Virus record (IMG/VR): IMGVR_UViG_3300025508_000163
Span: 1-22,976 of that record
DNA: 22,976 nt
Source: a virus
Reading direction: 5' to 3' (one strand)
The notes below the pieces were generated by a model. The model worked only from the letters and a program-made list of their open reading frames with translations. It did not search any database and had not been told where the DNA came from. Below, piece after piece: positions 4,727-22,584 of the stretch. The stretch's first letter is position 1, and each line of letters opens with the position of its first letter. The position numbers and the translations under genes were made by a program.

Positions 4727-5200
4727 TCATTGTGTTAATTGTTTTGTTTTAATTGTTTCGTTTTTATTTGCTACGCTGTGTTTCTCACCTATGTAGTAGT
4801 TCCAATAGGCTTTAACACTACACACATCTTTGTATCTGTCGGGCATACACTGCGGAGGGTTTGTAAAAAACCCATCAGGCATACCATGAGGAGGTAGAAG
4901 CAGTGCTTCTTTGCATTTAGTTATTGTTAAATGCACCTTGTCATATCGTCTTGTGTATTCTTCACCTAAAGCAATCATATGGTTATACAGCCAATAGTAT
5001 TGAGGCTTATTAGCCCTAGCCCACACAGTAGACGGATGATTGTAGTGAGCCTTCTTGTATGGCACATTATCTCCGTTGTCATAGTGGTGGTGCGCTGTGC
5101 ATAACATCTGTGCTGACTCAAGGATCATCTTGACTACATGCTTATCGTATTGATACTCAGCAGCTTTCTGTGGGTCTTTGTGTAAGTAAAATATATTCAT
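4727..5200 (-). CDS. Conserved phage protein of unknown function, 157 aa
   Basis: 157 residues with an aromatic- and His-rich pattern recurring in phage genomes: MNIFYLHKDPQKAAEY at the start, DKHVVKMILESAQMLCTAHH at about 19-38, NHPSTVWAR at about 54-62, EEYTRRYDKVH at about 80-90, and PPQCMPDRYK near 114-123. The clustered His, Asp and Tyr residues hint at a metal or nucleic-acid site, but no activity is known to me. The reading frame begins 15 bases after the tRNA-like structure at 5215-5330, so it is the first cistron behind that element. The family is recognised only as a recurrent phage protein. Confidence 0.7.
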   Translation of the reverse strand: MNIFYLHKDPQKAAEYQYDKHVVKMILESAQMLCTAHHHYDNGDNVPYKKAHYNHPSTVWARANKPQYYWLYNHMIALGEEYTRRYDKVHLTITKCKEALLLPPHGMPDGFFTNPPQCMPDRYKDVCSVKAYWNYYIGEKHSVANKNETIKTKQLTQ

Positions 5201-5214
5201 GTTAAATTAATTAG

Positions 5215-5330
5215 TGTGAGTGGGGGGAATCGAACCCCCCTGCTAAACCATATAAAACAGTCGGTCATATAGTACACAACTATGTAAAGGACATCACCCC
5301 TCTACAGGAAGACCGAATCCAGACACTCAC
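5215..5330 (-). ncRNA. tRNA-like structure 1 (116 nt), acceptor stem plus T-arm plus extra hairpins
   Basis: On the minus strand GTGAGTG (5330-5324) pairs perfectly with CACTCAC (5222-5216), a 7-bp acceptor-like stem, with A at the discriminator position and no encoded CCA. A T-arm GGGGG-TTCGATT-CCCCC directly precedes the 3' acceptor strand at the exact tRNA spacing. Near the 5' side, GGA-TTCGGTCT-TCC resembles a D-arm with the GG pair in its loop. In between are an 8-bp hairpin (TGTAGAGG/CCTTTACA) and a 5-bp hairpin (ATAGT/ACTAT); TCGGTC can also pair with GACCGA. If GAGGG/CCTTT is read as an anticodon stem the loop would show GAT (Ile), but about 45 bases then remain before the T-arm, far too many for a variable arm. 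It lies exactly between the stop at 5337 and the ATG at 5200. Confidence 0.6.
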
Positions 5331-5336
5331 TAAGGG

Positions 5337-5525
5337 TTAGAACGGTAGCCCTTCTAGTATGTCCATAGCTTTACTAATGGCATAACTACGTTGTTGTATT
5401 GATGTGCCACATGTCTGTGGTGTAGGTAGGGACAAGGAGGCGTTGTCATAGGTGTACGTTGTTGCCCCTCGTTGGATAGCATCAGCTATCTGATTCGAGT
5501 GTTGTATCTTCTGCTGTAGTGTCAT
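5337..5525 (-). CDS. Hypothetical protein, 62 aa
   Basis: Unrecognised. 62 residues with helical ends (QQKIQHSNQIADAIQR and SYAISKAMDILEGL) around a Ser/Thr/Tyr-rich middle. It overlaps the upstream gene by 44 bases and its TAG stop is six bases before tRNA-like structure 1. No membrane segment or Cys motif. Confidence 0.5.
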   Translation of the reverse strand: MTLQQKIQHSNQIADAIQRGATTYTYDNASLSLPTPQTCGTSIQQRSYAISKAMDILEGLPF

Positions 5526-8688: not shown

Positions 8689-8847
8689 TTACCCTATTAA
8701 ATCTTCGATTGTCATTTGCTCGTCACATGTGAGTGCATCCCACTCGCTTGTAGTCGTAGCTTGGCTAAATGTTAAGCCGTCAAAAAGTTGCTTTGCCGCT
8801 TGGATGCGGAGGTCGTGTGCTAACGCACTTGTGTTGATGTTTTCCAT
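8689..8847 (-). CDS. Hypothetical protein, 52 aa
   Basis: 52 residues (MENINTSALAHDLRIQ...), helical and acidic at the end. The ATG at 8847 is preceded by CAACATC, the shared leftward start context, and the stop is two bases before the next ATG. Function unknown. Confidence 0.55.
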   Translation of the reverse strand: MENINTSALAHDLRIQAAKQLFDGLTFSQATTTSEWDALTCDEQMTIEDLIG

Positions 8848-8889
8848 GATGTTGGATTTTATGGTTTTTGATGTTACTAAGATGGTTTG

Positions 8890-8925
8890 TATAATATATC
8901 TTCATAAATGAAGAGATATATTATA
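8890..8925. terminator. Long AT-rich hairpin, possible terminator or RNA-stability element
   Basis: TATAATATATC (8890-8900) pairs with GATATATTATA (8915-8925), 11 bp; after a two-base bulge, TTCA pairs with TGAA around a TAAA loop. It is AT-only in the outer stem and lacks a clear U-run, so it may be a processing or stability hairpin rather than a classical terminator. It lies between tRNA-like structure 2 and the gene starting at 8847. Confidence 0.45.
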
Positions 8926-8947
8926 CTAAACCTTCTAAGAGGATTAG

Positions 8948-8994
8948 AACATAGTGGGGAATCGAACCCCAATCGCACCCTGTGTGCCTATGTT
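8948..8994 (-). ncRNA. tRNA-like structure 2 (47 nt), acceptor, D-like arm and T-arm, no anticodon arm
   Basis: On the minus strand AACATAG (8994-8988) pairs perfectly with CTATGTT (8954-8948), a 7-bp acceptor-like stem. Inside are a 4-bp hairpin GCAC-ACAGG-GTGC whose loop holds GG like a D-loop, then GATT, then a T-arm GGGG-TTCGATT-CCCC (5 bp counting the flanking T-A pair) joined directly to the 3' acceptor strand. This is the layout of a tRNA elbow, or of the tRNA-like domain of tmRNA, without an anticodon arm. No CCA is encoded. It begins nine bases after the TAA of the gene at 9004 and precedes the long hairpin. Too short for a functional decoding tRNA. Confidence 0.6.
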
Positions 8995-9003
8995 GGTGAG
9001 GTT

Positions 9004-9438
9004 TTACAGAGTAGCCTCGAACTCAGCCATCGCAAGTGCCTCTGCATCTTGCATGCGCTTGGTGCGAAGTTTTGCCATTGCCATCTCAACTGTCTCTCCT
9101 TCGGAGAGCGTGTATGCCTCCCGACGTGGGGCTTTGTAGTTTTCGACAACCTCAGGCTTCAGGTATGATGTGCATACGTTGTCCTTAGCTTGCTGACGTT
9201 CTAACCTTTGGTTACGGCTCTTCGGCCTACCTGCAGATGCCTTACGGGCTAAGGGGTTGGATTTGCTCGGCTTGGCCTTAGCTTTGGTAGCTTTCGGGGC
9301 AACCTCTTCGAGGTTAGAGACCGCATCCATTAACTCCGTAAGGAGTTTGAGTGCTTGTGCCTTGCGCTCTGCGGTTGGCATGTACTTTGCTTGGTTCACT
9401 GCCTTACGGCAGTCTTTGAGGTTGATGTCGTGTGACAT
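9004..9438 (-). CDS. Basic Lys/Ala-rich protein, first gene of leftward transcript
   Basis: 144 residues. A helical N-terminal third (MSHDINLKDCRKAVNQAKYM; AERKAQALKLLTELMDAV) is followed by a Lys/Ala/Ser/Arg-rich segment (about 47-83) likely to be disordered and nucleic-acid binding, then an acidic-helical end. The ATG at 9438 has the ATACATC-ATG context; in-frame starts at 9516 and 9552 would put a hydrophobic stretch in front and read through a candidate promoter. As first gene it may be an early regulator or a DNA-coating protein, but this is inference. Its stop is nine bases before tRNA-like structure 2. Confidence 0.6.
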   Translation of the reverse strand: MSHDINLKDCRKAVNQAKYMPTAERKAQALKLLTELMDAVSNLEEVAPKATKAKAKPSKSNPLARKASAGRPKSRNQRLERQQAKDNVCTSYLKPEVVENYKAPRREAYTLSEGETVEMAMAKLRTKRMQDAEALAMAEFEATL

Positions 9439-9482
9439 GATGTATGGTTTAATTCTCAGCGACGTTGCCGAGATGATGCCGA

Positions 9483-20151: not shown

Positions 20152-22584
20152 ATGAAGAAACTATTATTCCTTTTATTCTTTTTACCAGTAACGGTATTTA
20201 CTCAAAACAGTTGGGTTAAAGTGGAAATGCAACCTGATCAGTACGCAGGTGAAACATCATGGGAGATATATAACGCAGATGGGGATACCGTAGCGGTTAG
20301 CCCTGTGTATACCTCTAATGTTTACCAGGAAGACATTATCCCATTAGACGCGGGGTTCTATAATCTCGTTGTACATGACTCGTTTGGTGATGGAATATGC
20401 TGTGATTTTGGTAGTGGTTGGTTTGGAGTAAGCAATGATTGCGGATTAAGCAACTATGTATATGACTTCAATTCAGTGCAAGCGGTTGTAGCATTTACTT
20501 TAGACGAATGCCTTTTGCCTGTAGCTGGATGTATGGATCCTGAGGCATACAACTTCAATCCTGAAGCAACAATAGAAAGCCCTGTTTGTGAATACGAAGT
20601 AACATTTAGATTAGACCTAAATGGACCGCATCCACCAATAGAGATACCTGAGGTTAATGGTGAGTTTAATGGATGGTGTGGTAACTGCTGGGCTATGTCA
20701 GACAATAATACTGATGGAGAATGGCAATACAGCGCAATAATACCCGAAGGTACTTACTTGTGGAAATTCTCAGCTGATACCTGGCTACAACAAGAGTTGC
20801 CTGTCGGTGTGTCTGAGTCCCCTTGCTTTTTATTTGATGCTAACGGATATGTGAATAGAACCTTAGTCGTAGATGGAAACATTACGCTACCCCCGTTCTG
20901 CTGGGAATCGTGCTTGCCGTGTGGAGCTGTAGTAGGATGTACAAATCCTGAAGCTACTAACTGGAATCCCTGGGCTAACTTTGACGAAGGATGTAACGTT
21001 GTAGAATCTGCTGACTGTGGACTTGGCTTTACTGAAATCTCTGTAACTATAGTCCCAGACAATTACCCCGCAGAAACGAGCTGGAACTTAATAAACAACA
21101 GCTTAGGTACATACATATACCAAGTGCCTGTAGGAAACTATGCTAATGCTCCTGTAGGCATTCCAATTACAACTAACGTTTGCACACCAGTAGGCAGTTC
21201 TGTAACATTTGAACTTAACGATACATACGGTGACGGACTTAACGGAGCTTTATGGGGAGGTCAGGACGGTGGAGCAATGGTTGCAGCCTGCTCTGAAACT
21301 TTATTTCTATTAGAGCCTAGCATGGTTAATTTTAACTATGGTTTATCAGAAAGTTTCAACGCACCAATATGCGAGCAGATAGATGATGTGCTCGGATGTA
21401 CAGACGAAAACTATGTAGAATACAACCCAGACGCTATAATCTCTATACCTACTATGTGTTTAACCGAGAAGGTTTATGGGTGTACAGATGAAGATTACTT
21501 TAACTACGACGAACTAGCCAACACCGAGGATCAAGTGGACTCATGTTTCTATACGCTTACGATAACAGACGGTGTAGGTGATGGATGGTTTGGTAGTTGG
21601 GTAGGCGTGCATCAAGATGGCTGGGTGTCACCTCAGTATCAGATGGGTCCTGATGACGGAGACGAACAATCTTTTGAGGTCTATCTTTCTTCCGAAGAAG
21701 AGATAGGGCTTTACTTCTTTACAACACCGCAGTCTCAGTTGTCTGCCGCGCAATGCGGGTTTATGCTTGAGGGGCCTACAGGAGATACGCTGCTACAGGT
21801 TGATCAGTGGGATGCGGTTCCATTCCCCTACACATACAGCGTTGCACCTTATTGTGGAAACAACTGTGAGCCATTTACGTATGGTTGTACTGACGAATCG
21901 GCTCAGAACTACAATGCTGACGCCAATACTAATGATAGTGAATGCTATTATTCTGCGGGGTGTATGCAGCCAGGCTATGTAGAATACTACAACCAGGGGT
22001 ATGAGGCTGACTTTGACGACGGTAGTTGTAACGAGTTAGCTGTCTTCGGATGTATGGATGAGCTGGCTTTAAATTATGATCCAGAAGCTAACGTGGATAT
22101 AGAAAGTTGTATTGAAGTAATACTTGATTGCACGGACCCTATTGCAGTGAATTACAACGAGTTAGCTAACACCCCTAATAATGAGTTGTGTTTATACGAT
22201 GCGGGATGTATTGGTGAGCCTGGTGAGCCGTACTACTTAAATGATTCGTGTTACGCCTGGATTATTGATATAGACTCGTACTGTTGTGAGGTAGCTTGGG
22301 ACGATGCGTGTGTTGATCTATATAGTTATTGTGAGCAGGGATGGCCTATGGGGGTCTCACAGGTTAATGATGGGCTTAGCGTCTACCCTAATCCAGTAAA
22401 CAGTGTACTTAACATACAAACCTCTCTAGACGTACTTACAGAGGTGTATAACGCATTAGGTCATTTGATAGTATCAGGCACTAAAGAAAAGAGGATTGAC
22501 CTGAGCGGGCTTCCTAGTGGGGTCTATCAGGTTGTTATAAACTATAACGGTAGGATTATTAATAAGAAGATTGTAAAGATATGA
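20152..22584 (+). CDS. Large secreted protein with T9SS type A sorting domain and Cys repeats
   Basis: 810 residues. Signal peptide at 1-18 (KKLLFLLFFLPVTVFTQ). The last 70 residues start LSVYPNPVNSVLNIQ (742-756) and end GVYQVVINYNGRIINKKIVK, the type A C-terminal domain that sends proteins through the type IX secretion system to the Bacteroidota cell surface. Between are about eight GC(T/M)D...NYN/NP...C repeats (from 126, 262, 415, 443, 578, 603, 633, 659), three DxxGDG turns (near 75, 358, 473) in recurring (A/P)AETSW...GDG modules common in marine Flavobacteriia, a stretch at about 147-212 (EFNGWCGNC...GTYLWKFSADTW) like AMPK/CBM48 starch-binding domains, and a DSYCCEVAWDDAC motif at 708-720. 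It would be exported and anchored outside the infected cell, perhaps for adhesion or exclusion. Same operon as virion genes; stop overlaps the next ATG. Confidence 0.85.
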   Translation: MKKLLFLLFFLPVTVFTQNSWVKVEMQPDQYAGETSWEIYNADGDTVAVSPVYTSNVYQEDIIPLDAGFYNLVVHDSFGDGICCDFGSGWFGVSNDCGLSNYVYDFNSVQAVVAFTLDECLLPVAGCMDPEAYNFNPEATIESPVCEYEVTFRLDLNGPHPPIEIPEVNGEFNGWCGNCWAMSDNNTDGEWQYSAIIPEGTYLWKFSADTWLQQELPVGVSESPCFLFDANGYVNRTLVVDGNITLPPFCWESCLPCGAVVGCTNPEATNWNPWANFDEGCNVVESADCGLGFTEISVTIVPDNYPAETSWNLINNSLGTYIYQVPVGNYANAPVGIPITTNVCTPVGSSVTFELNDTYGDGLNGALWGGQDGGAMVAACSETLFLLEPSMVNFNYGLSESFNAPICEQIDDVLGCTDENYVEYNPDAIISIPTMCLTEKVYGCTDEDYFNYDELANTEDQVDSCFYTLTITDGVGDGWFGSWVGVHQDGWVSPQYQMGPDDGDEQSFEVYLSSEEEIGLYFFTTPQSQLSAAQCGFMLEGPTGDTLLQVDQWDAVPFPYTYSVAPYCGNNCEPFTYGCTDESAQNYNADANTNDSECYYSAGCMQPGYVEYYNQGYEADFDDGSCNELAVFGCMDELALNYDPEANVDIESCIEVILDCTDPIAVNYNELANTPNNELCLYDAGCIGEPGEPYYLNDSCYAWIIDIDSYCCEVAWDDACVDLYSYCEQGWPMGVSQVNDGLSVYPNPVNSVLNIQTSLDVLTEVYNALGHLIVSGTKEKRIDLSGLPSGVYQVVINYNGRIINKKIVKI

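Follow-up and report, generated by a model that had tools for sequence, protein, structure and literature searches.

What does a 47-nt RNA that resembles a tRNA stripped of its anticodon arm do between two genes of a phage? Such an element is encoded on the minus strand of the window, by which we mean the whole 22,976-nt stretch of DNA that was analysed, and a preliminary description of it had offered three functions: recruitment of RNase P and RNase Z to cut the mRNA, capping of an RNA end, or a decoy for host tRNA enzymes. No close DNA homologues of the window were found among sequenced phages and plasmids.

The minus strand at 8948-8994 reads AACATAG-GCACACAGGGTGC-GAT-TGGGG-TTCGATT-CCCCA-CTATGTT, followed by CTAA, and is an anticodon-less tRNA-like structure (TLS) of 47 nt, hereafter TLS 1. 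Its minimum free energy (MFE) fold was exactly the proposed one, at -17 kcal/mol, and only 2 of 200 shuffled sequences did equally well or better. As in canonical tRNAs, an acceptor stem is combined with a 5-bp T-stem and a TTCRANY loop. All helices of the acceptor, elbow and T-arm arrangement described previously are present, and covariation in homologues strongly supports the arrangement, although some details required revision. The 7-bp acceptor helix exists, but its outermost pair, A8994:U8948, is probably N(-1):N73, leaving an acceptor of 6 bp. Similarly, the T-arm carries the TTCGATT loop on a stem of 5 bp (TGGGG/CCCCA) rather than on GGGG/CCCC, and the 4-bp D-like hairpin has the GCAC/GTGC stem with a 5-nt loop, ACAGG, that contains the reported GG. 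With a 6-bp acceptor (ACATAG/CTATGT) the tail becomes U73-C74-U75-A76, in line with the C74 of other TLS and of real tRNA genes. The element does begin nine bases past a stop codon, the TAA at 9004-9006. ARAGORN called no tRNA gene and no tmRNA in the whole window, and the Rfam tRNA model (RF00005) gave no match at 8948-8994, where the anticodon arm is absent from the sequence. The Rfam mascRNA-menRNA model (RF01684) scored TLS 1 at 24.6 bits (E 0.47), below its gathering threshold of 42.5.

The A+U-rich hairpin that adjoins TLS 1 co-folds with it, with a z-score of -5.7 for the joint stretch. By inspection, the arms of this hairpin co-vary and its loop CATTTATG is kept in four related phages (G003, G005, G007 and G085); the hairpin is absent from G048, G049 and G055. 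It is possible that it acts as a 5′ stabiliser of the downstream mRNA. The start sequence of the downstream 52-aa ORF is homologous in G003, G048 and G055. Elsewhere in the window, positions 20152-22584 of the plus strand encode an 810-aa phage protein with a signal-peptide-like start, whose C-terminus, judged by eye, resembles a type IX secretion sorting domain, which is unusual in a phage.

Coordinates of the TLS, their parts and their neighbours in the window, and of related elements in other loci (locus handles with L)
Feature	Position	Strand	Remarks
TLS 1 (class I, 47 nt)	8948..8994	-	sequence, MFE fold, covariation in homologues
TLS 1 acceptor	8988-8994 with 8948-8954	-	
TLS 1 D-like hairpin	8975-8987	-	GCAC-ACAGG-GTGC
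TLS 1 T-stem	8967-8971 with 8955-8959	-	
TLS 1 T-loop TTCGATT	8960-8966	-	
Predicted RNase P cut, TLS 1	8994/8993 (or 8995/8994)	-	
Predicted 3′ processing, TLS 1	at 8948 or just past	-	
3′ flank CUAA	8944..8947	-	C74-U75-A76 if 8948 is U73; no encoded CCA; from sequence
Gene upstream of TLS 1, ~145 aa, no family match	9004..9439	-	stop codon 9 nt before TLS 1
Long A+U-rich RNA hairpin, loop CAUUUAUG	8879..8936	-	directly 3′ of TLS 1
ORF downstream of TLS 1, 52 aa	8689..8847	-	ATG at 8847, 100 nt past TLS 1
TLS 2	5216..5330	-	7-bp acceptor GTGAGTG/CACTCAC, tmRNA-like D-loop CTGGATTCGG, extra hairpins
Gene upstream of TLS 2	5337..5525	-	stop 6 nt before TLS 2
Gene downstream of TLS 2, 157 aa, Pyr_excise-like, phrog_624	4727..5200	-	ATG 15 nt past TLS 2
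Class IV TLS	L101 2378-2476; L107 3984-4076; L109 2759-2827; L113 2462-2585; L115 82-159; L163 46-147 and 377-460		
76-nt tRNA-like element	L040 7564-7639; L059 9255-9330; L067 8850-8925; L069 6664-6739; L080 6463-6538		
tRNA-like element past GOLLD	L247, L254, L270, L277, L282, L288, L291, L299, L309, L413, L414, L417-L420, L424-L426, L428, others		
TLS and pseudo-tRNAs of Skunavirus (936 dairy phages)	L391 266-745; L397 536-1022; L399 538-989; L403 237-860		

The window holds a second TLS of 115 nt, TLS 2, which the preliminary description had missed. Its T-arm, GGGGG-TTCGATT-CCCCC, has the same T-loop as TLS 1, and its tail is A73-C-U-A. The Rfam tmRNA model (RF00023) matched it at 29.1 bits (E 2.3e-8), below the gathering threshold of 47, and the z-score of its fold was -2.7. 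Read from the sequence, pair 3:70 is G3:C70, not the G3:U70 alanine identity pair of tmRNA. TLS 2 is conserved in the sister phage G003, and, as expected of tRNA punctuation, both TLS 1 and TLS 2 lie between genes on the coding strand.

Elements combining a T-arm and an acceptor were more frequent in related contigs than chance allows. Over 21 such contigs (1.0 Mb) we counted 38 T-arms of tRNA type where a shuffled replicate gave 2.5, and 30 with a well-scored acceptor where it gave 0.05, counts that measure enrichment rather than an independent test since the descriptor was written after the first elements were known. The 30 include about four ordinary tRNAs, and ARAGORN calls four in these contigs. 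A fairer test than enrichment under a fixed descriptor is a pattern made of the loops only. Searched for in IMG/VR, the loop-only pattern AATGGTTAANNNNNGTTCGAYTC of the 40-nt class gave at least 120 matches, 82 of which were read; 78 of these had a full 5-bp T-stem, for which the pattern specified only the closing pair, and 75 also had an acceptor of 5-7 bp, which the pattern did not require. One class I pattern match, L405, was without stems and was rejected as chance.

Related Bacteroidota-phage contigs carry several TLS classes. Absence of stem covariation had been named beforehand as an observation that would count against a tRNA-like RNA at 8948-8994, and the stems of its homologues do covary. 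Among ten distinct sequences of class I, the window type, aligned by hand, the acceptor was paired in 70 of 70 cases with compensatory changes at five of seven pairs, and the T-stem in 50 of 50 with compensatory changes at three of five. A tool alignment of five of these sequences gave 100% pairing and double changes at 6 of 16 pairs, with all slid controls far lower. The D-like hairpin GCACAYAGGGTGC is invariant in most class I members; the longer element of G055 adds a second hairpin, GTAC-ATAGG-GTAC, in which one pair is changed and the loop is of the same type. Class V contains the smallest TLS, 40 nt comprising an acceptor, a AAUGGUUAA loop and a T-arm. MFE folding of isolated 40-nt forms was not significant, so the case for them rests on covariation: 77 of 77 cells were paired, 9 of 11 pairs were compensatory, and the covariation score was 1.02 vs 0.31 for shuffled sequences. 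Class II has the form AACTAG...CTAGTT, and class III TLS are 56 nt long. Class IV TLS (69-124 nt; GGGCGTG...CACGTCC) have G3:U70 and a variable insert, and they match the Rfam tmRNA model at E ~1e-10, below gathering. Judging from this tmRNA-domain-like sequence with its G3:U70 pair, class IV TLS may be charged with alanine. An amino-acid identity element common to all classes was rejected, as G3:U70 is common in class IV only and L104 has G3:C70.

Two further observations concern sequences of this kind. The motif GACAGTATCT occurs in TLS inserts at L138 2510-2606, L163 377-460 and L113 2308-2456, twice in two of them, and a 76-nt tRNA-like element (CCGCGAGTATCCCCTCAAGC...) that ARAGORN does not call lies upstream of a terminase gene.

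The scan of the related phages G051 and G062 found no TLS, and the examined stretches of the nearest annotated phages by terminase, Elemovirus (L240) and the Manatee Spring phage, held no T-arm. Thus TLS are not essential to the lineage. The R2 model gave 0 matches in 198 Bacteroidota genomes at E 1e-4, a weak negative from a search without a positive control. A search for relatives in Bacteroidota phages had been proposed; TLS do occur there, but also in phages of other hosts.

In relatives of the window, TLS share their strand with the small-gene cluster. Class I elements usually begin 6-14 nt past a stop codon, and over all classes both neighbours were co-directional in 19 of 28 cases according to a crude gene caller. 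The genes flanking class I, upstream and downstream, differ between phages, indicating that the element behaves as a module; a single conserved partner gene was therefore rejected. A 40-nt TLS in L241 and L281 begins 3 nt past the stop of a tail-protein gene (phrog_446), which in L281 we take, by eye, to encode T7-type tail tubular protein A and to lie upstream of the gene for the B protein. Several class V elements stand 55-120 nt from the upstream stop, and hence are not tied tightly to it. At 24 class V loci the upstream genes form a common family of ~76 aa, one member of which (L256) had no PHROG match when scanned; the upstream genes of other class V loci differ.

The loop pattern also matched at several sites just 3′ of GOLLD, a giant noncoding RNA. 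GOLLD loci were then chosen solely by an 18-nt motif of its 3′ end, which avoids selection by the TLS pattern. Six of 29 motif matches had no tRNA-like element and looked like coding DNA, and on this appearance of the sequence we did not count them as GOLLD (two of them, L422 and L423, gave no Rfam GOLLD match); in all 23 GOLLD-looking loci, which come from related phages and are not 23 independent events, a tRNA-like element lay 5-13 nt past the motif on the same strand. Rfam confirmed GOLLD in 14 of the 23. The adjacent element was a minimal TLS in 20 loci, with acceptors including TTATCAT/ATGATAG, TTTTCTC/GAGAAAG and TTTTTAC/GTAAAAG, and a full-size tRNA-Gly-like element in three: ARAGORN calls tRNA-Gly(UCC) in L419 and, for the degenerate element of L417, 'tRNA-???', and the element of L413 is not called and is tRNA-like by eye. 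The resemblance of the tRNA-Gly D-loop (TAATGGTA) to the minimal-TLS loop (AATGGTTAA) suggests that the minimal TLS could have arisen from tRNA-Gly by loss of the anticodon arm. The position of TLS past GOLLD fits 3′-end formation of the upstream RNA of the mascRNA type, and tRNA processing may generate the GOLLD 3′ end. The GOLLD structure paper contains no word 'tRNA-like' and does not name RNase P (PMC12286853).

Cultured phages carry TLS as well. In Gordonia phage Sephiroth, a 55-nt TLS begins 9 nt past gp132 and ends 32 nt before gp131, with a weak match to the mascRNA-menRNA model (25.9 bits; gathering 42.5), and a 98-nt candidate in Mycobacterium phage RedRock is probably a TLS. The Lactococcus phages bIL66, P008, 1W08F, ASCC284, MW18S, 30804 and CHPC958, all Skunavirus, have several tRNA-like elements (46-72 nt; at most four in one phage) within ~500-600 nt of largely unannotated DNA past the middle genes. 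Rfam scores some of these elements as tRNA; the rest score marginally or not at all. DNA resembling this stretch was found in 354 records. The genome paper on eight 936-type phages reported no tRNA (PMC6105707).

From these data we conclude that the RNA structure is conserved by compensatory change, that it occupies gene gaps on the coding strand as a module, and that it takes the same place past GOLLD as a tRNA-Gly-like element. C occupies position 74 in 92% of 52 class V elements, in 97% of 228 phage tRNAs and in 93% of 43 tRNAs from one Bacteroidota genome; the full CCA is seldom encoded. Bacterial RNase P cleaves hairpins consisting of only the acceptor stem, T-stem and T-loop (PMC11143913). 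Taken together with the C74 tail, this means that to maturation enzymes TLS resemble tRNA precursors without the decoding half. We consider it moderately probable that TLS are tRNA-derived processing signals at which host tRNA-maturation enzymes cut phage transcripts. A reduced tRNA, consisting of the acceptor, the D-loop/T-loop elbow and the T-arm, would be kept inside longer phage transcripts as a recognition and cutting site; host RNase P would cleave on its 5′ side, and its 3′ side would be finished by RNase Z or exonucleases together with CCA addition. Cutting would separate neighbouring mRNAs of a polycistronic transcript and, beside GOLLD, form the GOLLD 3′ end. Both cleavage by RNase P or RNase Z and cleavage as the selected function are inferred here. 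Of the three functions offered originally, processing akin to tRNA punctuation fits best because of the gene-gap position, the modularity, the tRNA-interchangeable place at the GOLLD 3′ end and the conserved C74 tail.

The main difficulty for processing is the Skunavirus arrays, in which TLS and pseudo-tRNAs lie in non-coding DNA with little to punctuate. These arrays leave room for a role in trans, in which the excised TLS would be a stable small RNA that acts as a decoy or regulator of the CCA-adding enzyme, EF-Tu, synthetases or tRNA-directed defence nucleases and, having no anticodon arm, would resist anticodon nucleases. Several TLS in a row, the strongly conserved loops with the invariant class I hairpin, and the G3:U70 alanine-identity pair of one related class are consistent with such a role. 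However, it leaves the position at gene borders and past GOLLD unexplained, acceptor sequences vary freely and the classes share no identity element, and we regard it as unlikely. Less likely still is a 3′-terminal cap, which after trimming and CCA addition would be retained on the upstream mRNA or on GOLLD and protect it, in the manner of plant-viral 3′ TLS. The frequent location of TLS a few nucleotides past stop codons and the GOLLD 3′ end agrees with a cap, but an acceptor and T-arm alone are an efficient RNase P substrate (PMC11143913), and a retained cap would therefore need protection from RNase P.

TLS might instead be decaying tRNA or tmRNA genes without function, given that a tRNA origin is likely, that tRNA-Gly and degenerate tRNA-Gly occupy the same post-GOLLD site, and that pseudo-tRNAs occur in Skunavirus. 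Compensatory change across the acceptor and T-stem, seen in many phages together with invariant D- and T-loops and C74, indicates purifying selection rather than decay, making this a very improbable explanation that we discarded on the covariation. Phage attachment (att) sites often carry tRNA 3′ ends, but we rejected as exceedingly improbable that TLS are integration sites or otherwise act as DNA that looks like the 3′ end of a tRNA: they also have the 5′ acceptor strand, which covaries, and a genome has several different copies, to which the R2 search adds its weak negative.

Returning to processing signals, TLS fit no described family: they fall below the mascRNA and tmRNA Rfam cut-offs and are not called as tRNAs by ARAGORN, which misses them because they have no anticodon. 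In the open-access literature we found no description of phage mini-tRNAs or anticodon-less tRNAs. The broadest form of our proposal, which we judge about evenly balanced between right and wrong, is that TLS constitute a widespread, undescribed class of anticodon-less mini-tRNAs of at least 40 nt in phages of Bacteroidota, Lactococcus, Actinobacteria and others, which descend from tRNA and are under selection as RNase P/RNase Z cutting signals, punctuating mRNAs and forming the GOLLD 3′ end. If so, DNA phages would, like mitochondria and MALAT1, turn the cell's tRNA-trimming enzymes to cutting RNA in general; TLS would be a natural minimal RNase P substrate, the origin of the GOLLD RNA 3′ end would be explained, and gene gaps that look empty in the 936 dairy phages and other well-studied phages would have a content. 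The predicted processing can be checked at single-nucleotide resolution in laboratory phage-host pairs.

Each known system shares part of this architecture. Phage-encoded tRNAs and the C4 RNA of phages P1 and P7 are processed by host RNase P (PMC11143913); unlike TLS, which have no anticodon arm, those RNAs decode or act as antisense RNA. The tRNA-like domain of tmRNA (RF00023) has an acceptor, a D-loop without a D-stem, a T-arm and a replaced anticodon arm, and TLS 2 and class IV score on its model, but they do so below gathering, the normal messenger domain does not fit, and TLS 2 has G3:C70 where tmRNA has G3:U70. Plant-viral 3′ TLS are viral mimics of the acceptor/T half of tRNA, with a pseudoknot acceptor at the genome end, whereas phage TLS are internal to the transcripts of DNA phages, have no pseudoknot acceptor and are not genome-terminal. 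Mitochondrial tRNA punctuation likewise uses tRNA-shaped intergenic elements as processing marks, although phage TLS are anticodon-less, non-decoding and located in phage operons. MascRNA and menRNA (RF01684; the 3′ ends of MALAT1 and MEN-beta) are also small tRNA-like RNAs with an acceptor, a short hairpin and a T-arm, lie 3′ of a long RNA whose 3′ end they help to form, and are matched weakly in Rfam by the window and Gordonia elements. They are animal rather than phage RNAs, and the Rfam model has 56 positions vs 40-47 nt in the smallest TLS classes; TLS stay below the Rfam threshold, occur between protein genes as well, and are cleaved only by prediction.
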